Positions 1,975 through 20,541 of a stretch of DNA of 31,317 nt are shown one piece after another; the first letter of the stretch is position 1; every line of letters starts with the position of its first letter. The notes under the pieces are model-generated. The model saw only the letters and a list, made by a program, of their open reading frames with translations, was not told the DNA's origin and did no database searches. Position numbers and translations under genes: made by a program. This DNA comes from a virus: positions 1 to 31,317 of IMG/VR virus record IMGVR_UViG_3300021963_000444; one strand, given 5' to 3'.

Positions 1975-2161
1975 TGACGATGACACACAGGTCTACAAAG
2001 ACGATGGCAATGCGTTGCTGATTGCATACCAAAGCGGGTACTACGATGGAAAGAAAGCGGCATTAGCTGGACGCGAGTGGAACTTTTGCGAACGCTGCGG
2101 TAAACGCACAGCAGACTTGACGGTTATCCACACTTGCACACCACCACAGGAGAACACATGA
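1967..2161 (+). CDS. Small protein with CxxC...HxC zinc-ribbon-like tail (64 aa)
   Basis: The N-terminus is strongly acidic (MDDDDDTQVYKDDG), followed by AYQSGYYDGKKAALAG, a 'GY.dG...A' motif seen in many small phage proteins. The C-terminal third has CERCGKR and then IHTCTPP, giving a CxxC plus HxC set that could form a zinc knuckle. Its ribosome-binding leader (AAGGAGAACAACA) is almost the same as the repeated leader of other genes in the operon. It overlaps the previous gene by eight bases and the next by four. The function is unknown. Confidence 0.7.
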   Translation: MDDDDDTQVYKDDGNALLIAYQSGYYDGKKAALAGREWNFCERCGKRTADLTVIHTCTPPQENT

Positions 2162-2787
2162 GCTACATAGTGGCATCACTGCCCCCAATTAATTGTTTTG
2201 TAAAAAGAGAGTTTCTTTACAACTTCACTAAGGGCCACGGCGAATTAGAGCCTGCGGTTTGGATCAGCATAAAAGGTCTTCGCGGCCAGGTGTTTAGGAT
2301 TGAGTCGCTACTGCCAGCTTACGGCGCGCTGTACGACAAGCTGCCCATCCACGCATACGTCTGGAAAGAAGACCACGGTGATTTGCCCATCGACTTCTTG
2401 CAGCTATGGGACTGCATGGGCTACCGGTTCACGGTCGTTGAGAAGATTGTTTTGCGCAACCTGGGCGTGAAGTTTCTAGGCAAAGACAAGCAATGGTATT
2501 ACGGCAACTACTTGTTCACCGTGGATTTTTGCGCTGACGGCCAGGACCTGGACACGGGTTTTACCGAACAAGCTGAAGAGCACAAGTCGTTTAATTTCAT
2601 ACGCCTTGAGAACGGGCAGTTTGCCTGCCAGCCAAACAACCGGTGCCTGTGGTATGACCAAAGCCTGGTTCCTTCTGAAACGAAGTTTCCCGACTTCCAG
2701 GCAGCGCAACATCTATGGTCGGTGGATGGCACGCGCAAGTGGAGCGCGGGCGACGATTGGTTTTATAGCATTCAAGAAAATGCGTAA
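2158..2787 (+). CDS. Conserved phage hypothetical protein (ALYDKLPIHAYVW type, 209 aa)
   Basis: The start at 2158 is preferred over an upstream in-frame ATG at 2134 because AGGAG stands five bases before it and it overlaps the previous stop (ATGA). The protein has segments I recognise as conserved in a widespread phage hypothetical family: CFVKREFLYN, GHGELEPAVWISIKG, and YGALYDKLPIHAYVW near residue 60. It is rich in aromatic residues, without membrane segments or recognisable catalytic motifs. In phages carrying it, the gene usually sits among early or DNA-metabolism genes, but no biochemical role is established to my knowledge. Confidence 0.78.
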   Translation: MSYIVASLPPINCFVKREFLYNFTKGHGELEPAVWISIKGLRGQVFRIESLLPAYGALYDKLPIHAYVWKEDHGDLPIDFLQLWDCMGYRFTVVEKIVLRNLGVKFLGKDKQWYYGNYLFTVDFCADGQDLDTGFTEQAEEHKSFNFIRLENGQFACQPNNRCLWYDQSLVPSETKFPDFQAAQHLWSVDGTRKWSAGDDWFYSIQENA

Positions 2788-3064
2788 GTCAACCCACGCC
2801 GACATCCGCCTTGCTCTGCGCGAAGAACCTGATGGCCTAACCATACAACAGGTAGCCCAGGTCACTGGCCTTGCCGCAGACTGTGTGCGCCAGGCGCTGC
2901 CCAGCATGCCTGACGTGTACATCGACCGTTGGGAGCAGGTAGCCAAGACCAAAGGCTACAAAGGCAAAACTTGGCGGGCTGTGTACATCGCTGTGGTCGT
3001 ACCACCAAACACAGCAAAGCCTAGTCCTTCTCCTCGCCCTCGACGGTCAAACCTTGACGAATGA
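2780..3064 (+). CDS. Small helix-turn-helix / winged-helix-like protein (94 aa)
   Basis: Residues about 8-45 (RLALREEPDGLTIQQVAQVT, then GLAADCVRQALPSMPDVYIDRW) have the spacing of a winged helix: helix, turn, recognition helix, then a YIDRW strand and a basic wing (AKTKGYKGKTWRAVYIAVVV). This fits a DNA-binding switch or repressor-like protein. The C-terminal tail is Pro/Arg/Ser rich and probably disordered. It is the last gene of the plus-strand operon, starts eight bases inside the preceding gene with a weak ribosome-binding site (coupled), and its last 44 bases overlap the convergent giant gene on the other strand. Being last and facing the late operon, it could influence it, but that is inference. 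Confidence 0.68.
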   Translation: MRKSTHADIRLALREEPDGLTIQQVAQVTGLAADCVRQALPSMPDVYIDRWEQVAKTKGYKGKTWRAVYIAVVVPPNTAKPSPSPRPRRSNLDE

Positions 3065-6000
3065 ACTGCTTTTTCTGGCGCAACTTTTCGCGCTCTGCTT
3101 CGCCTGTTGTGGGGCTGATGGCACCTTTGTTTTCCAAGCGCTGAGATTGCTTGATTTGCATTTCCAATTCCCGGATAAGGGCTTTCGTTTGCGCCTTCTG
3201 AATCTTTTCTGAAGTATCCAGGTCGATTGGCCTGGCTTTGATGCCGACAGTTTGCAAGGCCGCGTAGCCCGGTGTGATTGGCAAGCCGTCTTTGCCTATG
3301 CCCGTGTACTCGGCCAGGCCGACATTTACAGGTTGGCCGGTTACATTTGCAATCACATTCATGGCCCGCTCAAAGTGGCTATTGCCCACGGCAATGGCCG
3401 GTGTGATTTGCTTCCACATCCAAGCCGCGCGTTTTTGCGCGGCCTCAGCGTCGGTATCTGTTTTCTTGACAATTTCCTGGCCACGGAATGTGTCTTTATT
3501 AAACAGCATTGCCGACGCGATTGTGAGGATTGGGCTGTTAGGCGTGATCGGCGCAAGCAAGGGAATGCCGCCAGCGTTATTGTGCGCGTCGAACAGATCG
3601 CCACCGGGGAAGATACGGCTGACATCAAGGAACACGGGCAAATTGGTCAGGTCGTCCATGCCCAGGCGGATTGCCTTCTCAGTGCCCAGTGACAGGCTTG
3701 CGCCCTTCATCCACGGCGGTAGGTTTTTGCGCTCTTGTTCTTCCAGGTCCTTTGACTGTTGGCGGAATTCGGGGTCGGTCATGTATCGACGAATGATGGT
3801 CCACCAGTCTTCGTCTTCTCCACCGCCAAGGCTTGCAGCGATGGCATACATGGCCGCATTTGCCACGTAAAGCGCGACGGCAGGAGCAGCATAGCGGGTA
3901 GGGTGTTCAAGGGCCGTATTGACCAGGGCTGGCACGACCTTGTACGTGTAAGCAAAGAACGGCAGGCCGACTGGCATGTCACGAATAACACGGGCACCCT
4001 TGGGCATGTCGTCGTAAGAGAACATGTATTTGAGTGCGTAATCAACCGAGTCGTCTACGCTTAGGCCCTTGGCCCGCGCATCTCGGTAAATCATGTATCG
4101 GAAGAATTCGTCCTCGGCACCGTATGCTTTGCCCAGGGGTTTGCGCAGCCACAAAGACAGGCCGTTCCAGACCATTTCGACAGCGCGCTTGCTCTTGGTC
4201 TCTGTCATTTGGGCCAGGACCCGCAGCTCTTCGGGCATGGCCTCGGTCAGCTCAGCTCGATTGAACGTGCCGCCAAACAGACCGGCTTCTTTGGCTTCGT
4301 CCACCATCGCGTCGCCCTTGACCAGGTCTTTGATGGAGCCAATGTACTTGTGCGCGTCCCAGTAAGACACGCCAGCAAAGTGGGCCATCGTTAAGTTCGA
4401 CAGCACGTTGTTTGCGTGGGCCACTGGGTTGAGGACGGTCTTGCCCTCTTTCCACATTGACAAGCCTTTCATGTAAATCTTGGTCAGGTCGTTCTGCATG
4501 TCACTATCAAATGCAGTGAGCTGGTCCAGGATTTCACTTGGCACCCATTTACCGCCCAGCTTGCCGTAGCGCTTGGCGTAGGTGTCTTCGACGTTGGTCG
4601 CGGGCACCTGGACATAGCCCGGTTGTTCCGTCTTGCTTGCGTAAGTCGCGGCCAGGTTTTCATACAAGCGGCCCAGTGCGATGTCGCGCTGGCTCTTGTT
4701 GTAGCCCATGACAAAGCGGAACATGGCATCGCGAATTTCGCCCATGTCGTCTCGCTCTGTTCTGCTGTAGTCGCGCCACACAGTGATTTCGGTATCGACT
4801 GCTGGATCGTAGGTAGCGTCGCGCACTGCCCAGCCCTTGGCTTCCCAGTCTGCCAGGTCAGCGACGGGAACGGTCTCGAACATGCCGCGTGCCTTGAGGC
4901 TGCTGCCCTTGATGCCTTGCATGGTTTGCTTGCGGCCCAGCAATCCCTTGACTGCCTTCATCCAGGCTTTGGCTTCGTCGCCTAACTTCTGTTCGTAGAA
5001 GCGCGGCAGGTACTTGCCGTCCCAGCGGCCAGCGGCGTCTTTGGAAAGCATGCCCAGGCGCACCAGCTCTGCCGATTGCTCGGACATGATGTCCTGCATA
5101 GACGCTGCGATCTCCAGCACTCGCTTGGGTGGCTTGGCACCGCGCTTGAGTTCGCCTTCGATCACATCGCTGATCATCTGGCGCTCTTGATCCGGCAGGT
5201 CCTTCATGGTCTTGGCAACTTCGACCGTCAGGTTCTGCGCCTTGTCAATTTCCATGCGCATCTTGCGCATCGCACGGGACAGCTCTGGGCTGACCGGCTT
5301 CATGCCGACCACGTCCAGGACCGCGTTGGCCACGTCCGCTGCGTATCGGTATGCCTTGGCACCGGCACCGAAACGGAAGCGGCCCAGCTCATCACGGCTG
5401 AGCAGCCAACCCTCAGTCTCTTTGCCCATTGGTTGGCGCTTGGCAAACGCAATGCCTTGCAGTTGTTTTTCTGCATCATTTGGCACAGAAACCGTCTCAG
5501 TTTCACGCTCCCAGCCTTTTTCGTTGGCCTGCTTCTTGGCAAGAGCGGCGTCAGAGAGTACACTGAAGTCCTTCACGGCTTGGTTGCCACCCCTCGCAAG
5601 AGGAAGCGCTAGTGTATTGGTGAGCTGCTGGCCTTGGCCAGTACCTTGTGTGGTATTGAACCTTCCAAGTAAATCACGGAGCCGTGAAACCTCTTCTCCA
5701 GGCAACCACACTCGGTTGCCTTTTCTCATTTCGCGCACGATGTAAGACGCGGAATTTTCCAACGGGTACGTGGTCGCAAAGCGTGTGACTTTCAGCGTAG
5801 TGCCCCCGCCCTTGACCTCCTCCTTCTTCAACGCCACCACAATTGGAGCGCCGTTGGTGGCCCGCAAAGGCAGCACCACCAAAGCCTGGCCCGGTCCCTG
5901 GAATGTCACCATCCGTGGGTCCTTGAGCGCAGCGGGAAGCTGGCCAATCATGCGAGCGGTGATGCCCTCTTCAACGTGCTTGGCTGCGTGGTCCAGGGCA

Positions 6001-8354
6001 TGGCCGTCAAGCACCACCATCTGGCGGTCGCCCAACGGAACTCCCGGCCCCATGGAGAGCGACGGATGCGGCAGTCGGTCCGACAAGATTTTTGATTCAG
6101 TTATGTTGCCGCGTCCCTTAAATATGGAATCGGCCCATTGTTCCAGTTTGGCATCTACCGGTAGGTTAGTTTGCTTTTCACTAAACGCAATAGGCGCGCC
6201 AGTGATGTCTGCCTCTTGGCCGAAGGTCACGTTCTTGGCCAGGACCAGGGGGCCGATCTGGATCACTTCGTCTGCGGCCAGCACGGGGCGCATGGTGTCG
6301 CGGTCGTAGAAGTAGCTGTGGCGGAACGGGTCCATGCCGACCTGGGTCCAGGCTGGATCGTTCAGCGCCGCGTCAGCGCGGGCCTTAGCGTCCGCTTTGC
6401 TGATCGGTGACCATTTGCCAAGCATGGTGGCAATGGTGCCTTTGGCCGTGCCAGTAGCAATCCTCGCGGCCATTTTCTGGTTCATGCCAAAGGTGACGTC
6501 GGTCAGAGCGGCCACCGACTCATAGCCCACCACCGGGCCAGCGTCGTATGCGGCCTGGACTTCGCGATTGGTTGACTTGGGTGTATGCACACTGACCACC
6601 CAAGCGTTGTGCTCTTGGTAGGACGGGATGTCCAATCGGAGCTGCGCCCAGTCGCCCTTGATCAGGGTCATGGTCGGCACGCCATACTTGGCTGCCTTCT
6701 CTGCGCTCTGGCCACGGCCATTGGCCAGGGCGTAACGGGCGTCTTTGGGCGATGTAACGTCGGGCACGGCGGCGTAGGGGTACACCGGTCGCGATTCGTC
6801 AACCATGCGGTTGTACTCATCCCTGGTGATATTGCCTGCTTGCAGGTCGGCCACGGCTTGCTGAAGCTCAGGCGTGCGCTTGAATCGCTCTGCACTTGTA
6901 CCTTCTACGCGACTGGCCGCTGCATTCTTTTGCTCTGCCCTGCTTGGCGGCTCGACTTTGCGGGCAACAATACCCAGACCAACATCGCGCTCAGTTGCGT
7001 AACGGACTGGGTTTTCCAAGGGGTACATGTACTTGACTTGGCCAGGAGCAATGTCAAACTTGGAGCCTTTAGGCACCAGGGTTTGATCGCGGTACTGGTC
7101 AAATTGCTTTTGGGTAGATACCCGGATCGGTTCACCAATGGTCACCGCACCAATTGCTTTGGCTGGGCCGTCACCTGTGCGCACAATCGACACCCGTTTT
7201 CCGACGTATGGCCGGAGCGAGTCAGACGCCCTAGTCTCAAGTGTCTTTTCCCCGTCAACTATTTTGTCAGCGTATCGGTTTTCTCCATTCTGGTTGACGT
7301 TGATACCAATGCTTTCAGCTATAATAGGGGCGGAGGTTCCAATGACATTCGATTTCAAATCCCTTCCGCCCGGCACAATGTTCTTTGACTGGAACGAAGT
7401 GCCCGTGACTGTTTCGCCAGACTGGCGCTCGGCCACAGCCTGGGTGCCGAAAGCCTCCCCGCGCAATCCCTCGGATGTACGGGAAAAAGGTGATCCGGTA
7501 GACAAAGCTGAATTCGAGCGCGTGTTTGCAACATTCGCTGCCCGGCCAAAGTTTGCCCCTTCGGAATAAATCTTTTTCTGAAGCTCGACCATCTTGGCCT
7601 TGACTGGGCTGTCTGGCATCTCGCGTTCAAACGCATAGATGTCATGGCCCAGGTGCTTAGCAGCCAGCATCTCGGGCGTGCTGATCTGAATCTCAGCAAC
7701 AGTGCCGTCAGGCAATACGACGTTGGTCAGCACATCCTGGTAACCGGTGGACAACGGTTCGCCCTTTAATGGCTTGCCTTTGTTGTCAACCAGGTCAATC
7801 GACAATCGGTTTTTAATACGATCAAATTTGTAGACTTTGCCAATGGCGTTGATCACGCGCTGCGCATCCTCGGGTGTGCTAACGGCGATGGTGCCGCGCA
7901 GCAGGTCCTTCATAGTCTCAACGTCCCACGCGTTTTCGATGGCCAGCTTGGTCACTGCGCGGTACTCTTTTTTAAGACCAGGCTTTTTGGCGTACCCGTT
8001 AACCTCGTCGGCGATCCGATCCAGGGTGTTATCAAATTCCGGTTTGTTGCTGGTAGCCGATTTGTACAGGGGTTTCAACAGCTTATTGCCGTGTGCGCGT
8101 TCTTTCTTTGTCAGGGGATCAGGCGGCTCGGCCTTCTTGTACTTGGCGATCGCGGCCTCGGCTGCTGCAATGGTCTCAGGCTTGAGCACTTGTTCCGGGG
8201 TCAGGTCTTGCGCACGGCTGAACGCCACAGGCGCGCTAGGCAGCAAGTGTTCCAGGCCACCGCTGGCCAGGTAGGCTTTGAACGCGGCTTGGCCCTGGAT
8301 GACTCGCTCTTTGCCGTCACGGTCGGTAAACCTGTACGTGCAATCTTTCGCCAT
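3021..8354 (-). CDS. Giant polyvalent internal virion protein (1777 aa) with RelA/SpoT-like, ASCH-like and BECR-nuclease-like domains
   Basis: This last gene of the late operon is probably packaged and injected with the DNA. Domains read from sequence: residues ~95-245 resemble the RelA/SpoT nucleotidyltransferase fold (DLLRGTIAV at 150, GYQDVLTNVV at 204, EIQIST at 221, AAKHLGHDIY at 231); ~355-455 look ASCH/PUA-like (DGEKTLETR at 367); ~520-712 form an unnamed domain found in such proteins (MDPFRHSYFYDRDT at 674); ~775-900 resemble a BECR-fold phage nuclease domain (HALDHAAKH at 785). Residues ~985-1290 are helical. ~1300-1520 carry the LNPVAHANNVLSN and EDEFFRYMIYRDA motifs common near the C-terminus of giant phage proteins, with a hydrophobic segment at ~1489-1510. 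The C-terminal helix is charged. AGGCGG lies upstream of the start, 3 bp after the ferritin stop. An intact chain of this size argues for function, but each domain call is by eye and the catalytic residues partly differ from the standard families. Confidence 0.85.
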   Translation of the reverse strand: MAKDCTYRFTDRDGKERVIQGQAAFKAYLASGGLEHLLPSAPVAFSRAQDLTPEQVLKPETIAAAEAAIAKYKKAEPPDPLTKKERAHGNKLLKPLYKSATSNKPEFDNTLDRIADEVNGYAKKPGLKKEYRAVTKLAIENAWDVETMKDLLRGTIAVSTPEDAQRVINAIGKVYKFDRIKNRLSIDLVDNKGKPLKGEPLSTGYQDVLTNVVLPDGTVAEIQISTPEMLAAKHLGHDIYAFEREMPDSPVKAKMVELQKKIYSEGANFGRAANVANTRSNSALSTGSPFSRTSEGLRGEAFGTQAVAERQSGETVTGTSFQSKNIVPGGRDLKSNVIGTSAPIIAESIGINVNQNGENRYADKIVDGEKTLETRASDSLRPYVGKRVSIVRTGDGPAKAIGAVTIGEPIRVSTQKQFDQYRDQTLVPKGSKFDIAPGQVKYMYPLENPVRYATERDVGLGIVARKVEPPSRAEQKNAAASRVEGTSAERFKRTPELQQAVADLQAGNITRDEYNRMVDESRPVYPYAAVPDVTSPKDARYALANGRGQSAEKAAKYGVPTMTLIKGDWAQLRLDIPSYQEHNAWVVSVHTPKSTNREVQAAYDAGPVVGYESVAALTDVTFGMNQKMAARIATGTAKGTIATMLGKWSPISKADAKARADAALNDPAWTQVGMDPFRHSYFYDRDTMRPVLAADEVIQIGPLVLAKNVTFGQEADITGAPIAFSEKQTNLPVDAKLEQWADSIFKGRGNITESKILSDRLPHPSLSMGPGVPLGDRQMVVLDGHALDHAAKHVEEGITARMIGQLPAALKDPRMVTFQGPGQALVVLPLRATNGAPIVVALKKEEVKGGGTTLKVTRFATTYPLENSASYIVREMRKGNRVWLPGEEVSRLRDLLGRFNTTQGTGQGQQLTNTLALPLARGGNQAVKDFSVLSDAALAKKQANEKGWERETETVSVPNDAEKQLQGIAFAKRQPMGKETEGWLLSRDELGRFRFGAGAKAYRYAADVANAVLDVVGMKPVSPELSRAMRKMRMEIDKAQNLTVEVAKTMKDLPDQERQMISDVIEGELKRGAKPPKRVLEIAASMQDIMSEQSAELVRLGMLSKDAAGRWDGKYLPRFYEQKLGDEAKAWMKAVKGLLGRKQTMQGIKGSSLKARGMFETVPVADLADWEAKGWAVRDATYDPAVDTEITVWRDYSRTERDDMGEIRDAMFRFVMGYNKSQRDIALGRLYENLAATYASKTEQPGYVQVPATNVEDTYAKRYGKLGGKWVPSEILDQLTAFDSDMQNDLTKIYMKGLSMWKEGKTVLNPVAHANNVLSNLTMAHFAGVSYWDAHKYIGSIKDLVKGDAMVDEAKEAGLFGGTFNRAELTEAMPEELRVLAQMTETKSKRAVEMVWNGLSLWLRKPLGKAYGAEDEFFRYMIYRDARAKGLSVDDSVDYALKYMFSYDDMPKGARVIRDMPVGLPFFAYTYKVVPALVNTALEHPTRYAAPAVALYVANAAMYAIAASLGGGEDEDWWTIIRRYMTDPEFRQQSKDLEEQERKNLPPWMKGASLSLGTEKAIRLGMDDLTNLPVFLDVSRIFPGGDLFDAHNNAGGIPLLAPITPNSPILTIASAMLFNKDTFRGQEIVKKTDTDAEAAQKRAAWMWKQITPAIAVGNSHFERAMNVIANVTGQPVNVGLAEYTGIGKDGLPITPGYAALQTVGIKARPIDLDTSEKIQKAQTKALIRELEMQIKQSQRLENKGAISPTTGEAEREKLRQKKQFIRQGLTVEGEEKD

Positions 8355-8357
8355 GGC

Positions 8358-8849
8358 TTAACCGCCTAGTTCTTGGTCGATCAAGAGCGTGCCAGCCTTG
8401 TCTTGGTCGACAAGGTCAATGCGCGCCAGCAGGTCGCCGTACTCGCCGACACTGGTGCGCTGGATTTCAAGGAATTGCAAAAGGTATTGTTGAACCACTG
8501 GATCGTCAGAGGCCCGACCGTACCACTCCTTGTAGCTGTTGTACAACTCCATCTCGGTTTCGTACCCAGTCTCGATGGCATCGCTGAGGGTCTCGATGGT
8601 GTCATTCATCGCCTCAATCATGGGCACCTTGGCCACCGTACCTACGTCGTTCTGAAATTCAACGTGGCGCTGGTAATGCTCCAGCTCGTCCGCGCTTTCT
8701 TTGAGAAAGAATTTGGTTGCACCAAAGTACCCGATTCGCTGGAGCTGATTGGCAATGTGCTTGTACAGATTGGATGCGTACAGCTCGGAATGGATTGCTT
8801 CGTCCAGCATCTTTTTGCAGTCGTCGGAGATGATCATCTTGGGTAGCAT
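8358..8849 (-). CDS. Ferritin (FtnA-like, non-haem) encoded in phage late operon
   Basis: The 163-residue protein is close to the length of bacterial ferritin. It shows the four-helix ferritin pattern: AIHSELYASNLY (E22, Y29), ESADELEHYQRH (E55, H58), ETGYETEMELY (E97/E99) and LEIQRTSVGEYGDLL (Q130, E136), plus a C-terminal GTLLIDQELGG that mirrors the GLYFIDKEL tail of E. coli FtnA. E22, E55, H58, Q130 and Y29 fall where FtnA has ferroxidase-centre residues E17, E50, H53, Q127 and Y24, so Fe(II) oxidation and iron storage in a 24-mer shell is expected. The start at 8849 is preferred over 8870 because AAGGA lies eight bases before it and it leaves an 11-bp gap rather than an overlap. It sits between two giant injected-protein genes, so it is expressed late. 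The virus could use it to sequester iron, limit oxidative damage, or package it. Bacterioferritin or Dps are less likely on the motifs. Confidence 0.9.
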   Translation of the reverse strand: MLPKMIISDDCKKMLDEAIHSELYASNLYKHIANQLQRIGYFGATKFFLKESADELEHYQRHVEFQNDVGTVAKVPMIEAMNDTIETLSDAIETGYETEMELYNSYKEWYGRASDDPVVQQYLLQFLEIQRTSVGEYGDLLARIDLVDQDKAGTLLIDQELGG

Positions 8850-8860
8850 GGCTTGGGTCC

Positions 8861-11800
8861 TTATTTGCAATTGATCTTAACCTTGTCCGCATCCTCAAGC
8901 TGGATCAAGATGTCGTTGAAATTCTCTTGCACGTACTTAATCTGAGCGGCATCTGTTCGTCGCGCAACTATGGATTCCATGTTGGTCTTGGCCAAGCCGC
9001 GTTTATCTAATCCCGCAAAGACGTCTTCGAGGGAAGTCCGGGCTTGGATGAAAGATTCCCGCTCTGCTCCTTGGAGCGGGCCAGTTGGCCTAGTCGGCTG
9101 GCCAGTCTGTCCATCTGCTCTGGCGTTCTGCTTTCCAGCCACTTGTCGTGCTGGTCCTGGTCCAGATTGGGCTGCTGTGTCGATTTGTTTTCCATCAAAA
9201 CCTTCTTTTGTAAGTAGTAATTTTGCTGCCCCGGCGTAGTCTTGGCTAGTGACTGCAAGATCAACACCCAACTTTTTATAGAGTTCTTGTTCTGGATACC
9301 AGACCAGCGCTTGCAAAGCCGCTGGTGGCACACGCTTACCAATCTGCTGCTCAACCATAGCTACCATCTGGCGAGTTACGTCACGCAAGCGTTGGCGCTC
9401 ACCCCCACTAGATGGCGCGTCGGTTGGTTTGTCAGCCGATTTTAGTATAGCTCCAGCCGCGCCGACCAGGGGAGTTTTGATTCGGGTGCCTGAGTCAAAC
9501 GCCTCCCGCTGCTTGATGAATTGGCGGTTGTGCAGGCTGCTCACCTGGCGGGCCAGGGCGATGGCCCCTTCATCAGTCTCCATCGCGGCCTGGACGGCAG
9601 CCGGGTCAAACTGGGCAGCGTAGACGCCGATCTCGGCTGGGCCGGTTTCGGCCAGGGCGGCGCGCAGCTTGGCCACTTGCTTGGGGAACAGCACTGGATC
9701 AAACGCTGGCAAGGTTCCGGTTAGACGGCCAACCAAACGCATGAACCACATGTCCATGGTAATTGGCTCAAAGTTGCCGGTCAGGTTGCTATAGAAACCA
9801 AAACCAATCTTGGGGCCAAAGATGGCAGAGCCAAGTATTTTTTCATCCATCGACTCACCACCAATTGGAAAGCCAACAGTCTCCAGCTCTCGCTTGGTGA
9901 ATTCTGTTTGCAGGAACCGGCGCAACAAATCGGGACCCATATCGGCCATCACTCTGTTGGCCAAAGCAAAATTCTTGGTCATAGCCGGAATAGATTTGCC
10001 TTGGCCAATTTCAGGGAATTTGCCTGTTGTGCGGTAAGCCTCGTACTGGCTAGACGCAAAGGTCAGATTGGCTTCGACATCCATCGTCTGTGACGAAATA
10101 GCAACAGCTATCAAAAATGCATTGCGTGCATTTGGGTCCGTGTTTAGCTCTGGGTATTTAACCGCCATGATCCGTAGCATTTTTTCAACAGTCTCGTCGT
10201 ACCATTCGACGGCGTTGCCCGCACTGCGGATGGCCGCCACAGCCTCAGAAGCCATTAGTTTGGCCAGGGTTGTGCGGTCTTGGGCTTTGTTTAAATTAAG
10301 AATCGGCAGACCAGATTCCAAACGCCTGTTAGTCAACCACTGCACGACCTCGGGAATGCCGCCAATTTTGGGAGCGCGGAAAGTTTTATTGCCGGTTCCC
10401 CCCAACATCAAGGGCAGGGCGGTGGCGTCGTATTCCACCTGGGTCAGGTTAAAAGCCTCAGCAACGGCGCGGTAAACGCCCGTGTTTATTTTGCGTCCGT
10501 CGGAGCTTTCGTCGGCTGCAAGTTCGGCTTCGATTGCGGCACTGGCTTCTTCACGGATGCGACGAGCTTCTGTCCGTTTTGCAAGAAGCTCGGGAGTGAG
10601 GTTCCCGTTTTCAGAATCATAATCGTACTCCTTGTTGGATACAAAGGCGCTCTGGCCTTCGGCTGCATTAATAATAAAACCTTCTGGGCGACGGCCAAGA
10701 GCGCCTTGTATTTTTGATACAAGGTCGGCCATCCTATCAGAAGGAACGGCCAAAACCATTTCTTTTCCAACCGTTGTGTGGCCTTTGATGTTTTCAGGCG
10801 ACACTTGCCGAATGGCTTGGTAAACCGAATGGACCGATTCCTGGTCTTGCATGTTCTCGGGCAGCGTGATCGTAATCAGGCCCGTTAGGCTAGACCCCTC
10901 AAAAGGCTTGGAGTCCAGAACCATCATCTCTTCTTGGGTTAAACCAAACCCACCTAACCGGGCAACATCCATAAGTTGCTCAGCGGATGCCGTGCTTGGG
11001 AGAATCGCCGCAAACGAAGGACTTGTTTTTTCAAGGTAGCCGCCCAACTGCGTGGTCATCTTAGCCCGGACCCCGGCCAGTCTGAAAACCTGGGGCATGA
11101 TCTTTGCGGCAACGCGCTGGCTGATTTCGATCTTGCGCTCAAAGGGCACCGCATCCCAGCGAGTGTTGAGATCAAGGTTGTTGGGGTCAGGTGCAACCTC
11201 AAACATAACCCGAGCCGGGGCTGCTTGCCTTTTAGCAAAACGTATTTCGCTGCCGATGCGCGTCATCTCGGTGTTGGCCGCTTCCACCTGGCCCGCTGGT
11301 ATCTCCAGGGTGCCCATGCGCATGCGCGAACCGGGGATGTTGCCGGTGTCGACCTGGCTGGCCTCGCGTGTCAGCAGGCCCTTCTTGAGGGTGGTAGGCG
11401 CGGCCTCGGCTGGCAGAGCTGCGGCTCGGGGCTGGCCGATCTGCTTGACAGGCACGGCCTTGTGTTTTTGGCCCAGCAGCACCACTGCTGATTGGCCATT
11501 ACCAAACGGCGCGATGTAACCGTCAAACCCTGCGTTGATGACCGCTGACTCAAACGCGTTTGCGTCGGCCTGCGGTTTGATCAGTCGAGTCTGTGGGTCG
11601 TAGATGTTGTCCAGCTTGGTTTCGTGTGCGTACCCGCCGACCCCGGATTCGGGGCGAATACCCGCGCCTTGGTCAACATAGAAGTAGACGCGGTTTTTAA
11701 GTCGAGGATCAGTGCTACTGTCCAGGCGAGTACGTTCTGCCCCCTTGAGTCCTTGTCCATAGTAGGCTCCACTTAGCGTCTGACGGGGAGTTGTTGAGTA

Positions 11801-14800
11801 GTGTCGGGCGACAACGGAGATCGCGCCTGTTCTTGCGGTTCCGTAGGTTGGGGTCGGACCGCCCCCATCTTCGCTAAAGCCTGGTCGATCCTGCGCTGTT
11901 GGTCCTGGTAGGTTTTCACTTCCCCGGGTTCCGATGGTCGGTGCATTGATTTCTCCTTGCCGCAGGCTCATCGCCGGGGGCGTGGTGGTTGGTGCAAGCT
12001 GTTGAAGCGTGCCATTGCGGTATGCCACCAGGGCATCACGCGCAACCATTTTAGCCCGATTCAAGTCTTTGAGGTAGCTGTCGACTTTGACCGACTCCAG
12101 GTTGGACCGAGCACGCACGCCCCGTAGACGCGCGATCATTCCGTCCAGGATGCCGATCCACTTCTTCACAAAATCGCCAAAGCCCTTGGGGTCCGCCTTG
12201 GCCAAGCTGGCCAGGAAACGCTTGTCTGTGGCACGGTTGCCCATGAAGTCAGCCGTCATCTCCGAACGGGTCTTCGGCTCGGTCAGCATTTCGGTGATGC
12301 GGGCTTCGCGTGCGACCGGGTCTTGAATTGAATCCAGCTCTTCTTTGTTTAGGAAATTGCTGATGTACGCGCGCTTGCCCTCATCGGACATTTCACCGAA
12401 CAAACCGTGGATGGACGCGACGTATTGCTGTGCCGGTGTATCGGTGCGACCGGCTGCCGTATCAGCGGCAGCGATCCGCTCGGCAATATGGAAGCCCTCA
12501 TGCCAAGACGTGTGAGCTATGCCTTTTTGCGATTCGGTGTTGACCGCGATGACGCCGCCAAGCTCGAACCCATCGGCCCCGTCGGGGTCTGAGTAAGCCA
12601 CGACTTTGTTAACCAAGCCGACGCCACCAAGGGCGTCTGCAACGATGCTTACGGCTGCTTCGTTTTCTGGAGTAGGCGCGGTAAGGGTCGGGACTGCCAC
12701 GCCATGGATTGCTGCGGCACGGTCCAGGCGGGCTTGAAGCTCGGCTCTGGCAGTTGCTCCAGCTCCCGTAACAGGGGCGTCAGACACCCGCCCTTGGGCG
12801 TCGCCCAGGCCAAACGAGGTCCTGCTTGTGTCGAGTGTTTCACCTGCGTAGGATACCGTACTCGGTGCCCCGGTGGCCTGCGGCGCGGCGCGTTGGGTAA
12901 ACGCACCGGCTTCGTCCTGGCGTGCGGTCAGCTCAATTGCTGCACTGCGGCGAGAGATTGGGGCAACGGTCTCGTCGCCAGTGATTACCTGGAGCTGATC
13001 GTCTGTCAGGTCAGCGACCGGCGTGCCCTGGATGCTTTGCGGCCTGGGCGCGTTGATGCGCAACTTGTCCAAACCAAACTGCTGCTCGGTTGCCTGGTTG
13101 ATCTCAGCGGCTGGGGCGTTCAGGTCCAGAGTCGGCTCAACCACTTGGCCAGCGGTGGCCGGGATACTCAGGTCTAGGCCAGGCTCAATCAGTCGGCCAG
13201 AGGGAGTCAGGGCGCTTGCGTCAAACCCTGGCCCAGCGCGACCCACAGAAGGGGTCATTTCGCCCACTCGGAAGGTTGGCTCAAGGGGTAGGGGCGTGAT
13301 GGCCGTTGAGGGCACCAGAAGCTCGTTTAACGAACCGGACAGGCTATCCGCTGCTGCGGCTGCGGCGTCTGCCGTGGTTGATTGCTGGAGGTTAGTCTGG
13401 TCCCGTTGGACCTTGGCTGTCTGGTCAGGCCGGATGATGTTGGCGTCGTATGACTGCACGTCTAGGGCGCGGCGGGCGTAGGCGTCAGCCGCCAGGTCGA
13501 CCGCCGGGGCCGGACGATTCAAAGCATCACGGACTTGCTGGCCAACAGCGGCGGCTGAAAATGGGGCTGATGTAACGGCAGCCGTACCCATAGCCTCGGG
13601 CACACCCTCCAAAAGGGCTTGTTTAGGATTGACAGTTTGGATAAGTATGTTGCCGCCAGCCTGTGTCCCGCCCTCTTCAATCTGTTCGCCAAAAAATTCT
13701 TTGGCAAACACTTTGGCCGCGCCTTTAGGCGTTGCTGCCTCGGCTAAACCTCTGCCAGCACCCCTGGCGACCAAGGTGGCTTCGGCACCCATAAAACCAA
13801 AAGCAGCAAGCGGCAAAACAATTAACCCGGCTAGGCGTGCTTTGCTTGTTGCGATTTCGTCGATTGCTTCTTTCTGCGCAAGTTTGTAATCTTTGTAGCC
13901 GGGCAGGTTTTTAAGATCGCCCATAGCGTCCAAGTCTTTGGACAGCTCTCGCACCTTAGCTATTTCACCCCTGGCCTGCTCTTCAGTTCGCCCGCGTTTA
14001 ACCAGGTTTTCAACTAGCAACTTTTGGTAGTCTGGATTTTGTTCCCAATTACTGGTGGGCGTTTTCTTTGGGTCAGTTAACGTCTCATAAACATTGCCTG
14101 CGGCGTCGCCGCTGGTCATCACTGCGTTTGCAGTAAAACCTCCAGCAAATGTTCCAGCGGTTCTTGCCCCGGCTTGGATAGCGCCTCCGCTGATAGCCTC
14201 GCTAAGCGCCACTGTAGGGCTAACCCGAGAAGCCGCAGCAACAGAACCCCCGGCAACTGCCCCACCTAATTGGGCTAAACGTAAAACCGCCAGGAAGTTG
14301 GGGACCTGCTTAACAGCCTCAGACAAACCAAGGGCTGGGTTGGTTACCAAACTTTCAACGGTTGTAAAGTATTTGCCAAGAAACCCGTCTTCGTTTTTGA
14401 CTCGGGCTGACAACTCTGCACGCTGAGCTTTTAGAACGTCGGATTCTTGTGCTTGCAATTCTTTTTGCGTGTCACGCAGAATGCCGCCCAGATTGCTGCC
14501 GGGCGCAATGAGATTGGTTGGAAGCTGGACTAAGCTTGTTACGCCTTGGCCCAGACCAGAGAAAGTATCAGCAGCCCATTCGCCAGCGGTTCTAAATTCA
14601 TTAGCTTTTTGTTGTTGAGCACCAAGCGCAACTGCGGGGTCATTGGCCCGCTCAAATAAATTTGCTAACTCTGCCGGAGCTTTCTTTTCGTCAAGCAGTT
14701 GGACAACGCGGTTTACTGTGGCGTCTTTGCTGGCGACAGCCTGAGAAGTGCCGCGAGTGCTTCGCACTAAATCGGCGGTGGCCATAGTTTGTTTGCTGAT

Positions 14801-15184
14801 TGGCCCTGCGCCCGCAGCCAGTCGCTTGTCGATTTCCGCCTGGCGCTCTTGAGGCGAAGGCTGGTAGTTTTCTAAAACGCTTTTGGGTTCCGGCTTTAAA
14901 AATGATCCGATGCGGGAGATCAAGCCTGGCGCGTTGGGGTTGGTGGGCGCAGCAGCGGCCATGATGGCCGAGCCAAAGTCATCGCCGCTTGGGCTGTAGT
15001 CCGCAGAGACCTGTTGCGGGGCTGCGGCCTGGCGCACCGGGGCCGGGCGCGGTTGCTGGACGTCTACCTTAAACGGGGTGACGTCGCGCCGCCCTTGGGG
15101 CTGCGATACAACGGCGTCTTGCTCCCACCACTTTTCGTTTGGAGCTTCAACAACAGCATCGTTTTCCCACCAGTTTTTTGCCAT
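8861..15184 (-). CDS. Giant polyvalent internal virion protein (2107 aa) with metallopeptidase-like and ADP-ribosyltransferase-like domains
   Basis: The N-terminus carries the motif WWENDAVV (5-12), repeated as WWEQDAVV (19-26), a signature at the start of many large phage internal proteins. Residues ~290-355 and ~450-475 are Ala/Gly-rich hydrophobic stretches that could insert in membrane during ejection. Residues ~560-870 are low-complexity linker. At ~885-985 there is an HExxH site (SWHEGFHIAERI, H895/E896/H899) with a downstream EMTADFMG (E975) that could be the third zinc ligand, so a zincin peptidase. Residues ~1120-1250 match the ADP-ribosyltransferase-like domain of polyvalent proteins (VARHYSTTP, YGQGLKGAERTRL, RVYFYVDQGAGIRPESGVGG, FESAVINAGFDGY). 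Residues ~1560-1900 form a long conserved helical region (GPKIGFGFYSNLTGNFEPIT) of unknown role. AAGG precedes the start; its stop lies 11 bp before the ferritin gene. Its position after the small internal proteins fits an ejected protein delivering effectors to the host. Domain calls are by eye. Confidence 0.85.
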   Translation of the reverse strand: MAKNWWENDAVVEAPNEKWWEQDAVVSQPQGRRDVTPFKVDVQQPRPAPVRQAAAPQQVSADYSPSGDDFGSAIMAAAAPTNPNAPGLISRIGSFLKPEPKSVLENYQPSPQERQAEIDKRLAAGAGPISKQTMATADLVRSTRGTSQAVASKDATVNRVVQLLDEKKAPAELANLFERANDPAVALGAQQQKANEFRTAGEWAADTFSGLGQGVTSLVQLPTNLIAPGSNLGGILRDTQKELQAQESDVLKAQRAELSARVKNEDGFLGKYFTTVESLVTNPALGLSEAVKQVPNFLAVLRLAQLGGAVAGGSVAAASRVSPTVALSEAISGGAIQAGARTAGTFAGGFTANAVMTSGDAAGNVYETLTDPKKTPTSNWEQNPDYQKLLVENLVKRGRTEEQARGEIAKVRELSKDLDAMGDLKNLPGYKDYKLAQKEAIDEIATSKARLAGLIVLPLAAFGFMGAEATLVARGAGRGLAEAATPKGAAKVFAKEFFGEQIEEGGTQAGGNILIQTVNPKQALLEGVPEAMGTAAVTSAPFSAAAVGQQVRDALNRPAPAVDLAADAYARRALDVQSYDANIIRPDQTAKVQRDQTNLQQSTTADAAAAAADSLSGSLNELLVPSTAITPLPLEPTFRVGEMTPSVGRAGPGFDASALTPSGRLIEPGLDLSIPATAGQVVEPTLDLNAPAAEINQATEQQFGLDKLRINAPRPQSIQGTPVADLTDDQLQVITGDETVAPISRRSAAIELTARQDEAGAFTQRAAPQATGAPSTVSYAGETLDTSRTSFGLGDAQGRVSDAPVTGAGATARAELQARLDRAAAIHGVAVPTLTAPTPENEAAVSIVADALGGVGLVNKVVAYSDPDGADGFELGGVIAVNTESQKGIAHTSWHEGFHIAERIAAADTAAGRTDTPAQQYVASIHGLFGEMSDEGKRAYISNFLNKEELDSIQDPVAREARITEMLTEPKTRSEMTADFMGNRATDKRFLASLAKADPKGFGDFVKKWIGILDGMIARLRGVRARSNLESVKVDSYLKDLNRAKMVARDALVAYRNGTLQQLAPTTTPPAMSLRQGEINAPTIGTRGSENLPGPTAQDRPGFSEDGGGPTPTYGTARTGAISVVARHYSTTPRQTLSGAYYGQGLKGAERTRLDSSTDPRLKNRVYFYVDQGAGIRPESGVGGYAHETKLDNIYDPQTRLIKPQADANAFESAVINAGFDGYIAPFGNGQSAVVLLGQKHKAVPVKQIGQPRAAALPAEAAPTTLKKGLLTREASQVDTGNIPGSRMRMGTLEIPAGQVEAANTEMTRIGSEIRFAKRQAAPARVMFEVAPDPNNLDLNTRWDAVPFERKIEISQRVAAKIMPQVFRLAGVRAKMTTQLGGYLEKTSPSFAAILPSTASAEQLMDVARLGGFGLTQEEMMVLDSKPFEGSSLTGLITITLPENMQDQESVHSVYQAIRQVSPENIKGHTTVGKEMVLAVPSDRMADLVSKIQGALGRRPEGFIINAAEGQSAFVSNKEYDYDSENGNLTPELLAKRTEARRIREEASAAIEAELAADESSDGRKINTGVYRAVAEAFNLTQVEYDATALPLMLGGTGNKTFRAPKIGGIPEVVQWLTNRRLESGLPILNLNKAQDRTTLAKLMASEAVAAIRSAGNAVEWYDETVEKMLRIMAVKYPELNTDPNARNAFLIAVAISSQTMDVEANLTFASSQYEAYRTTGKFPEIGQGKSIPAMTKNFALANRVMADMGPDLLRRFLQTEFTKRELETVGFPIGGESMDEKILGSAIFGPKIGFGFYSNLTGNFEPITMDMWFMRLVGRLTGTLPAFDPVLFPKQVAKLRAALAETGPAEIGVYAAQFDPAAVQAAMETDEGAIALARQVSSLHNRQFIKQREAFDSGTRIKTPLVGAAGAILKSADKPTDAPSSGGERQRLRDVTRQMVAMVEQQIGKRVPPAALQALVWYPEQELYKKLGVDLAVTSQDYAGAAKLLLTKEGFDGKQIDTAAQSGPGPARQVAGKQNARADGQTGQPTRPTGPLQGAERESFIQARTSLEDVFAGLDKRGLAKTNMESIVARRTDAAQIKYVQENFNDILIQLEDADKVKINCK

Positions 15185-15189
15185 GAGAT

Positions 15190-16791
15190 TTAACCTTTTG
15201 TGCGGATGGAACCGTCAGGTGCTTTGTATCGCGTACCGCTCTTTAGCTTTGCAAGGTCTGCCGCCGATTTAGGCTCAGGCAAACTTCCCGCTGGCACTAC
15301 CCCCTTGGGCACAGGCGCTGGCGCAGGGGGTGGTTTCTTAGCTTCCAAAGCGCCCCGCTGCAATGCTAGAGCCTGGTCGCGTACCGCCACGGCGTCATCC
15401 ATGCTCTTTTGCCAGGCGGCTTGGGATTCTTTCGTACTTCCCTTGCCATTATCTATAAGCGATTTAATCGTCGCATTGGAAGCGTTGATAACGGTACTAA
15501 GTTTTTCAGTGCTTTTATCGCTAAGTGATCCACCTTTAATTTCAGCGTCGATTTTTTCAATGTCTTTGCCGTACTTCCTAGCCAACGCGCCAGCCTGGCC
15601 AGCCTGTGCCTTGTTCTCATCAATCTGCGATCTGCCCAGGGGTGTGGTAGAGCTCTCGCCAAGGTACTGGTTGTATTTTTCACCGCCTTCGATGTTGATA
15701 ATCGGCTTGCCTTCTGCTGCCGCAACCGCGCCGGAGCCTATGCCCATTTTGGTAGCGCCAGATAAGACGCCTTGGCCAACGCCAGTTTTGAAATTAACTA
15801 GGCCAGCATCAGCCGTGGCTTTAGTCCCTTTGGCTGCGGCCTCGCCAGCTTGTGCCAGGTTCTCGCTGATCATTGAACCACCCACAGCCGTGGCCGAGTT
15901 GCTGCCGGAGTACTGGTTGATCGCCGTGCCGTCTTTGACATCGTACACGGGTTTGCCTTCTGAGGCCGCAACCGCGCCAGCGCCTGTGCCCAATGGGGTA
16001 GTGCCAGCTAGGACGCCTTGACCAACGCCAGTTTTGAAATTAATTCCACCAGCTTTGGCTGTGGCCTCGCTTGCTTTTGCCAGGTTCTCGGTGATCATTG
16101 AACCACCCACAGCCGTGGCCTCGTTTTTGCCGGTGTACTGGTTGATCGCCGTGCCGTCTTTGACATCGTACACGGGTTTGCCTTGTGAGGCCCCAACCGC
16201 GCCAGCGCCTTTGTCCAATGGGATAGTGCCACCTAAGACGCCTTGGCCAACGTCAATCTCAAAGCCAGCTTGGCGACCTTGCATTACTTCTTTGTAATCC
16301 TTTTTGAGCGCATAAACTTCTTGGAGTCTGCCCAGCTCTTTTCTTTTTAAAGCAAACTCTTCTTTCAAAGCCTGGGGTACTTCCGTCACAGTTTGCACGC
16401 CATACGTATCATCAAGCGTTTTACCAATTGGTCGTGCAAACTCACTTAGGTCGCCAGTCTTATTAGCTTTATAAAACTTGTTGTAGTCGTCTTCTGAATA
16501 CCCAAGTGTATTGGCAGCCATGTTCGCGGCTCTGCCGCCAGGGGCGAGGTCTTCTATCTGAACACCCTGGTCCTTGCCAGCGCCAGCGCGCCCTTCCATC
16601 TGCTGGGCGGCTGTACGCTTGTAAAGTGCGTCTTGCTCAGCCCGATACTCGCGCCTGTCCTGTTCTAGCTTATCGCGGTAATCGCGGTCGGCCTCGCGCT
16701 CCTGAGCGCGCAAGAGAAAACTGCCCACAGTGGAACCGGAGTTGGCAATCCCTTGCCCAACACTGGCCCAGATTAAACCTTGGCCTGCCAT
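15190..16791 (-). CDS. Internal virion protein with three ~75-aa tandem repeats (533 aa)
   Basis: An N-terminal hydrophobic/small-residue segment (IWASVGQGIANSGSTVGSFL) is followed by a long charged coiled coil (~28-60, EREADRDYRDKLEQDRREYR). Then come three tandem repeats at ~177-251, 252-333 and 334-400, each beginning VGQGVL(G/A/S)G and containing SGAVAA-type and GKP(V/I) segments, with an NQY core and an SxI..N end. Repeats 1 and 2 are almost identical at the DNA level; repeat 3 is diverged. The C-terminal third is helical and then Pro/Lys-rich, ending KAPDGSIRTKG. I do not recognise a named family. Placement between the small internal proteins and the giant polyvalent ones, and the repeat/coiled-coil build, suggest a structural component of the ejected core. 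AAGGAA lies six bases upstream of the start. Confidence 0.78.
   Translation of the reverse strand: MAGQGLIWASVGQGIANSGSTVGSFLLRAQEREADRDYRDKLEQDRREYRAEQDALYKRTAAQQMEGRAGAGKDQGVQIEDLAPGGRAANMAANTLGYSEDDYNKFYKANKTGDLSEFARPIGKTLDDTYGVQTVTEVPQALKEEFALKRKELGRLQEVYALKKDYKEVMQGRQAGFEIDVGQGVLGGTIPLDKGAGAVGASQGKPVYDVKDGTAINQYTGKNEATAVGGSMITENLAKASEATAKAGGINFKTGVGQGVLAGTTPLGTGAGAVAASEGKPVYDVKDGTAINQYSGSNSATAVGGSMISENLAQAGEAAAKGTKATADAGLVNFKTGVGQGVLSGATKMGIGSGAVAAAEGKPIINIEGGEKYNQYLGESSTTPLGRSQIDENKAQAGQAGALARKYGKDIEKIDAEIKGGSLSDKSTEKLSTVINASNATIKSLIDNGKGSTKESQAAWQKSMDDAVAVRDQALALQRGALEAKKPPPAPAPVPKGVVPAGSLPEPKSAADLAKLKSGTRYKAPDGSIRTKG
15592..16263 (-). repeat. Three in-frame tandem repeats, 225-nt period between first two
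   Basis: Units lie at about 16263-16039, 16038-15793 and 15792-15592 within the 533-residue protein. Between the first two units, 50 nt are identical (15910-15959 and 16135-16184) and a further 40-nt block differs at one base (15856-15895 and 16081-16120). Both matches are offset by exactly 225 nt, showing a recent in-frame duplication. The third unit is recognisable mainly at protein level. Confidence 0.9.
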
Positions 16792-18547: not shown

Positions 18548-18988
18548 TTAAATTCCTCTTACGTATGAAAGGGTTACGGTTTCCCTGGAAAAACCAAGGT
18601 GTTTTAAAAAGCGGACTAAACGCGGGTCTGCATTTGGTTCCAAACTAAGCACAGCCACTTTGATTGCAGACCGGCTCTTAATCCATTTGGCAAATTCACG
18701 GATCAATTTGACGCCAGCGCCCTTGACCAGGGAGTAGTACAAAAGCACCGAGCACTGCATCTTGTCGTACCAAAAACTTTTCTGTACACAAGCTCCAAAC
18801 ACTGCTACCACTTTGCCATCTTCGTCTTCTGCGACCCAGGCAAAGTGCGCTGGGTTGATACAGGCGTTGGCCATGCGCGCCATTGCTTCGCGGTCAATGT
18901 TGACCGGCAAAGGGTTGTTCGACACGGAGATCACCGCTATCTCTACGATAGCCGGGACATCCTGGGGCTTGGCTTTTCTGTAGATCAT
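18548..18988 (-). CDS. GNAT-family N-acetyltransferase (146 aa)
   Basis: This is a typical GNAT layout. The N-terminal strand-helix is MIYRKAKPQDVPAIVEIA; a central strand pair is HFAWVAEDEDGKVVAVFGAC; an acetyl-CoA pyrophosphate loop is LVKGAGVKLIREFAKW (the R/Q-x-x-G-x-G/A position reads VKGAGV); and a late strand is AVLSLEPNADPRLVRFLKHL, GF. The length is normal for the family. The transferase would use acetyl-CoA to acetylate an amine on an unknown target. Its ATG region overlaps the end of the following-numbered internal protein gene (4 bp), so it is co-translated with structural genes. In this position it could modify a virion protein, or be a packaged effector. The substrate cannot be read from sequence. 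Confidence 0.85.
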   Translation of the reverse strand: MIYRKAKPQDVPAIVEIAVISVSNNPLPVNIDREAMARMANACINPAHFAWVAEDEDGKVVAVFGACVQKSFWYDKMQCSVLLYYSLVKGAGVKLIREFAKWIKSRSAIKVAVLSLEPNADPRLVRFLKHLGFSRETVTLSYVRGI

Positions 18989-20064: not shown

Positions 20065-20541
20065 TTAACCCAGGAACAGGGCGCGCTCGTCAATCCGGCG
20101 GTTTTGCAAACCTTTCAGCGGCTTGCCCCCGGCCATACAGTATTTGGCAAATTCCGCAGCAGCGCCTTCCTTATCGCCCCGTAGCAGTTTCTGGCGAAGC
20201 GTACTACGCTGGAGTGTCCCAAGGCCGCAGTTAAATGAAAAGCTAACAAGCCCATCAAACATACCCTGTGTAAGAGGGACAGGACAGAACCGTTCCACCC
20301 CGCGTTCAAATCGCTCAAGATCGGCTGCAAGAATTCCATTTACTTCTTCCATGGTGAATTGGCGGTTATCTTCTGGCCGAAGCGGGAAAGCGTCCCGCTC
20401 CTCCAACTTTAACCGGCCTTGCTCGGGGTAAAGCACATGGCCTACCCCTATGGTCCAGAGCTTGGCTGGGCACCGGTAAGCACGCGTCCTGGTGCCTTCG
20501 TGGTGCTTAATGATCCCAAGGGCTTTGTTTGAGGTTTTCAT
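20065..20541 (-). CDS. Endolysin, GH24 (T4/lambdoid-type) lysozyme (158 aa)
   Basis: It cleaves the glycan strands of peptidoglycan at the end of infection. The N-terminal catalytic region reads IIKHHEGTRTRAYRCPAKLW then TIGVGH: the catalytic Glu is in HHEG (E15), the Thr is in TIGVGH, and the position that is Asp in T4 lysozyme is Cys here (YRCPA). That E-C-T arrangement is common in GH24 phage enzymes. Further signature parts are GMFDGLVSFSFNCGLGTLQR and the C-terminal LKGLQNRRIDERALFLG. Length is normal. There is no signal peptide or SAR segment, so it should stay in the cytoplasm until a holin releases it. The start overlaps the stop of the upstream holin-like gene (ATGA). Confidence 0.95.
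   Translation of the reverse strand: MKTSNKALGIIKHHEGTRTRAYRCPAKLWTIGVGHVLYPEQGRLKLEERDAFPLRPEDNRQFTMEEVNGILAADLERFERGVERFCPVPLTQGMFDGLVSFSFNCGLGTLQRSTLRQKLLRGDKEGAAAEFAKYCMAGGKPLKGLQNRRIDERALFLG

Follow-up and report, generated by a model that had tools for sequence, protein, structure and literature searches.

Why should a phage encode a ferritin, and why should the gene stand among those for its own virion? The question is raised by a window of 31,317 bases, the whole stretch of viral DNA that we analysed. In it, a gene for a ferritin of 163 amino acids (8358-8849, minus strand; ATG at 8849, stop codon at 8358-8360) lies between two giant genes. The one directly upstream (8861-15184, minus strand; 2107 aa) occupies the position of an internal-virion or ejection protein and ends at 8861, 11 bp from the ferritin gene. 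The one directly downstream (3021-8354, minus strand; 1777 aa) is of the polyvalent type, with relatives that carry LPD38 and ART-PolyVal, and starts at 8354 after a gap of 3 bp. A Shine-Dalgarno-like AAGGA (8858-8862, minus strand), 8 bases 5' of the ferritin ATG, overlaps the stop codon of the upstream gene, and the ribosome-binding sites of the neighbours are also purine-rich (AAAAGG for the upstream giant, AGGCGG for the polyvalent gene). A search for a promoter or terminator specific to the ferritin gene found none. The same block contains a 533-aa gene upstream of the giant (15190-16791, minus strand) and an endolysin (20065-20541, minus strand; phrog_7), and a virion structural or tail fiber protein (22563-24959, minus strand; phrog_19943) marks it as phage late genes; a GNAT-fold gene (18548-18988, minus strand) is related to the internal virion protein family phrog_308. 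An earlier note on this DNA had described an intact, full-length ferritin gene within a late structural block, separated by 11 and 3 bp from two giant genes and sharing their kind of ribosome-binding site. All of this holds: the reading frame has no internal stop and its product matches the ferritin family PF00210, the coordinates and the purine-rich sites agree, and the neighbouring genes support the nature of the block. The IMG/VR virus record is probably a fragment because close relatives of the window reach 52-63 kb; a terminase large subunit is present in each of thirteen such long relatives.

The position of the ferritin gene recurs far beyond this window. Successive scans of viral contigs gave 25, 56, 104, and 179 candidate relatives, and the set of loci analysed here comprises 108 contigs with 85 distinct ferritin proteins. 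Close homologues of the C-terminus of the upstream giant occur in 33 contigs, and ferritin adjoins the giant in all 32 that are readable. The 33rd contig (L206) has, at 7494-7880, the start of a ferritin followed by an inverted part of the gene on the other strand, a fold-back assembly chimera at the contig end. Over the whole set, ferritin follows a giant gene in 63 of the 85 distinct cases, a count obtained by single-linkage clustering and thus a loose grouping. Elsewhere it stands directly behind portals of different families: phrog_6547 (L055, L081-L089), phrog_12082 (L063; separated from it by a 100-aa gene in L061), and the lambda-type PF05136/phrog_21 (L076, L051). In L148 the ferritin gene comes after Terminase_3, Portal_Mu, and Phage_Mu_F, in this order, and the cluster upstream of it recurs in L152; in L129 the gene lies behind a polyvalent protein that includes an InPase domain, and in L053 and L056 it has a GroES-like gene on one side and genes for virion structure on the other (L053 being one of the 85 distinct cases). 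The neighbours of three of the 85 (L146, L147, L151) could be assigned to no class of packaged protein. The ferritin tree requires a minimum of 8 context changes. Hence, the gene sits in the portal/MuF/internal-protein slot, that of the packaged or ejected class, and it is nearly always beside portal or packaged-protein genes, across three different portal families or MuF. Searches of the long relatives for portal phrog_12082, and of 15 of them for a T7-type RNA polymerase, gave no match, as did their respective controls.

Four distant giants (28-33% identity) are without ferritin, and among deposited phages the nearest relatives, which are Limnohabitans phage DC33 and two podophages from Manatee Spring, have none either. 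Since these relatives lack it, the ferritin was probably gained in the clade of the window and then kept. A giant in the internal-virion-protein position is present in DC33 (3125 aa) and in one Manatee Spring podophage (3209 aa), and the upstream giant of the window is in part homologous (33-36%) to that of DC33. The latter phage (L258, PQ492659.1) is filed under Inoviridae, yet it has 39 kb, an endopeptidase gene, and a podophage-like giant of 3125 aa, so this is probably a taxonomy error.

What could a ferritin do in such a slot? The muf genes directly follow portal genes, gp7 of SPP1 is bound to the portal in the capsid interior (PMC5576092), and phage polyvalent proteins are probably packaged and injected (PMC5512222). 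The position of the ferritin gene next to such genes suggests that the phage may carry an iron-handling protein into its host. Because a place behind portal, MuF, and giant packaged-protein genes recurs, travel with the ejected proteins is the most likely of the options raised in the earlier note, and the position makes packaging more likely than it would be if the gene required nothing but late expression. The proposed course of events is as follows: the ferritin would be translated late, together with the neighbouring virion proteins; along with the giant proteins, it would be incorporated into the head close to the portal; and it would enter the next host with them as subunits, or else act before lysis in the producing cell. 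There its di-iron site would oxidise Fe(II) with O2 or H2O2 and the ferric mineral would be stored, which should reduce Fenton damage to phage DNA and withdraw iron from the defence and metabolism of the host. Passage as subunits would be imposed by size. A ferritin cage measures some 120 Å. The tail channel of N4 measures 30-45 Å (PMC12633501). An ejected ferritin must therefore pass as subunits, the 24-mer being too large for a tail channel of 3-4 nm. That a catalytically competent ferritin is made with the virion proteins, packaged, and used to clear the infected cell of reactive Fe(II) is, in our judgement, evenly balanced between true and false. The more specific proposal holds that packaging of ferritin subunits in the virion, and their injection alongside the ejection proteins, are common to a widespread group of tailed phages; it is tentative and falls a little below even chances. 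No signal for packaging was identified. The downstream giants of most loci share an N-terminal motif resembling CxYxF...G..A(F/L)KAYL, which may serve them all as a signal for packaging or anchoring.

The alternative that survives best is a late auxiliary gene, whose unpackaged product would buffer iron and peroxide until lysis and whose slot would simply provide late and strong expression. We consider it a serious possibility, if one that is clearly short of an even chance. Metabolic-enzyme genes can sit among phage structural genes without their products being packaged, as in the case of cyanophage psbA. The intact ferroxidase site would suit such a role, Dps and Mn-catalase of gut phages are interpreted in this way (PMC8008677), and a bacterioferritin has been treated as an auxiliary metabolic gene in a predicted archaeal virus (PMC10904782). 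However, any place in a late operon would serve this purpose, and yet it is the portal/MuF/giant slot that recurs across different portals.

A second alternative is that the ferritin bundle was reused as a component of the head or portal vertex and lost its role in iron handling. Two observations are in its favour: the gene is adjacent to portals in several lineages, and Y106, G135, and D139 are invariant in the phage ferritins and absent from cellular ones. But the di-iron ligands E22, E55, H58, E99, and Q130 are all invariant in 85 of 85 distinct sequences, and a purely structural role would not maintain five of them, which makes this reading improbable. Only 16 of the 163 columns of the alignment are invariant; the probability of finding five specified columns all within this set is about 5e-6, a figure that ignores the conservation expected of functional columns. 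Position 29 is Y in 79 sequences and W in 6. The ferroxidase-type residues named previously (E22, Y29, E55, H58, Q130) are thus all present, and E99, the fifth ligand, had been overlooked. Given the established chemistry of ferritins and these invariant ligands, oxidation of Fe(II) by the phage protein is very likely. The FtnA-like C-terminal tail described in the earlier note is confirmed as an E-helix; for the iron site, a likeness to FtnA fails. FtnA has a third iron site, which we take to consist of E49, E126, E129, and E130 (FtnA numbering). In our alignment its three acidic columns hold E in each of the 24 proteobacterial ferritins and mostly I/L/T, T/K, and S/A in the phages. Because these acids are lost and the ferroxidase site is kept, the phage site looks H-type rather than FtnA-like, and for want of the same acids mineral loading may differ from that of FtnA.

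These readings presuppose that the protein is a ferritin, and on profiles and a predicted structure it is almost certainly a true one with a conserved ferroxidase site. First, it matches Pfam PF00210 (Ferritin) with 61.3 bits (cut-off 24.5; E 1.3e-16). Second, its best NCBIfam match is non-heme ferritin, where the 33.2 bits to NF007638 lie below the equivalog cut-off of 178. Third, an AlphaFold model built on an alignment of 50 relatives has a mean pLDDT of 95.9 and helices at 9-39, 42-68, 88-112, 117-146, and 151-161, the last being the C-terminal E-helix. This model superposes on E. coli FtnA (1eum) with Z 24.0 and an rmsd of 1.0 Å over 157 residues, and on the ferritin of Thermotoga maritima with Z 24.3. 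Membership in another four-helix di-iron family (Dps, rubrerythrin, or bacterioferritin) would be in line with weak matches to rubrerythrin (Pfam, 2.7e-8) and to encapsulated ferritin, but the 50 PDB structures listed by the structure search are all ferritins, with no Dps among the matches listed; the best of them are classical ferritins matched over the full length including the E-helix, and non-heme ferritin leads the NCBIfam profiles, so that we do not favour any of these identities and consider them very improbable.

The ferritin belongs, by its sequence, to a lineage that appears to be restricted to phages, carried by freshwater phages. A maximum-likelihood tree separates 39 phage from 24 proteobacterial ferritins by a branch with support of 100/100, and the identity of phage to cellular ferritins is at most 28%. 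Among 50,697 deposited phage records, none contained a member of the clade when queried with the window protein and three divergent members; a cellular-type ferritin used as query found unannotated records only. No host-like copy of the phage ferritin was found in samples of 369 and 398 proteobacterial genomes, which partly overlap; their ordinary cellular ferritins reach at most 82 bits, and two contigs from bins there reach at least 236 bits. Relatives of the ferritin are also present on three contigs from genome bins of Burkholderiales, Rhodoferax, and Methylobacter. The close relatives of the window gene are under strong purifying selection, with dN/dS of 0.05-0.18 against the 14 nearest (dS up to 1.2). 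The pattern is more than chance because it involves 85 distinct sequences at 108 loci, invariant ligands, and these dN/dS values. Recent capture from a host, or contamination in assembly, is refuted and has a next to negligible probability: ferritins are common in bacteria, PF00210 being present in 14 of 14 control genomes, but the low identity to cellular ferritins, the fully supported branch, and a slot shared by dozens of independent contigs all speak against it, in agreement with the earlier view that this is not a stray host gene.

The other genes of the window deserve some remarks. The C-terminal part of the upstream giant (8861-10360, minus strand) is 71-97% conserved in close relatives and has an invariant TMDMWFMR block, resembling an enzyme core. 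A model of its last 499 residues (pLDDT 75) had no Foldseek match with E below 0.001, and we rejected an assignment as the 5-PmdU glycinyltransferase of phage PaMx11, the best VIA-align match (Z 6.6) but one too weak for a helical model. The 1777-aa giant has Pfam matches to RelA_SpoT (128-236), ASCH, L5_gp82, and MuF_C, all weak and below the cut-offs, and is a possible injected effector acting in nucleotide signalling or on RNA. A region of it matches the protein behind the portal in podophage ctYwJ313, with two tiny ORFs intervening. In two other loci a small ORF lies between the ferritin and the polyvalent giant (L125, 10492-10764, 90 aa; L146, 10486-10677, 63 aa). A conserved 217-aa gene (2134-2787, plus strand), convergent to the late block and found in many relatives, matches phrog_3704 'ferredoxin' (E 1.5e-74), a label that is doubtful since the gene lacks both a Pfam match and a CxxC cluster. 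None of the PADLOC defence models matched.

Viral ferritins, phage Dps, bacterioferritins as auxiliary metabolic genes, and single phage entries in structure databases are already known. In the literature covered by our search, with most subscription journals outside it, we found no description of a clade of phage ferritins that is associated with portal or ejection genes. Here, a clade of freshwater phages has a conserved iron enzyme as a fixed component, which is tied to portal and ejection genes across different portals, so that the repertoire of the portal slot now includes ferritin. If the protein is packaged, it would be an enzyme of iron chemistry already active in the host within the first minutes after infection and a new class of injected effector; a ferritin packaged in the virion would, once confirmed, be a clear surprise. 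Phage control of iron was proposed before, as the Ferrojan horse and as protection from reactive oxygen species (ROS), on indirect data. It is now testable whether phages carry or inject iron-handling proteins and whether iron or ROS limits phage infection.

How does this ferritin compare with known systems? Like E. coli FtnA, it has the full-length fold of five helices, the ligands of the A and B di-iron sites, and the C-terminal I-D-x-E-L motif; unlike FtnA, to which its identity is about 20%, it does not conserve the acids of the third iron site and is encoded in blocks of structural genes in phages. Human H-chain ferritin presumably shares with it the Gln of the B site, Ser/Ala in place of a Glu of FtnA, and the lack of a third site, but the identity is only 23-24% and the phage origin differs. 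Proteins of the ferritin-like superfamily are present in other phages, but they belong to other families: DPS-like proteins and Mn-catalases in gut phages (Gratiaviridae), for which the authors propose protection from damage by iron and ROS (PMC8008677), and bacterioferritin in vOTUs of Flandersviridae (PMC11780533); the parts of these two articles considered here mention no connection with genes for the portal or for ejected proteins. A bacterioferritin has also been found in a predicted virus of Bathyarchaeia (PMC10904782). The ferritins of giant viruses (PMC7136201) and that of an uncultured marine phage in a structure database (A0A8D9C9X5, 23% identity to the window ferritin) are likewise encoded by viruses, with no described conserved slot. 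Ferritin- or Dps-like folds also occur in BFVD entries A0A6J7WIS1, A0A6J7WPK9, and A0A6J5RFH1, phage proteins of 432-763 aa named prohead protease or Dps that are possibly head-protein fusions, with a poor rmsd. MuF and polyvalent proteins occupy the same gene positions as the phage ferritin, behind the portal or in the packaged and injected block, but they are structural proteins or multi-domain effectors, and the account of the polyvalent proteins (PMC5512222) does not mention ferritin. Finally, the Ferrojan horse hypothesis (Bonnain et al. 2016, via PMC9061769), in the form given in that secondary source, likewise links the phage particle with iron, but it concerns iron in tail fibers that is used for docking, whereas the ferritin described here is an enzyme.
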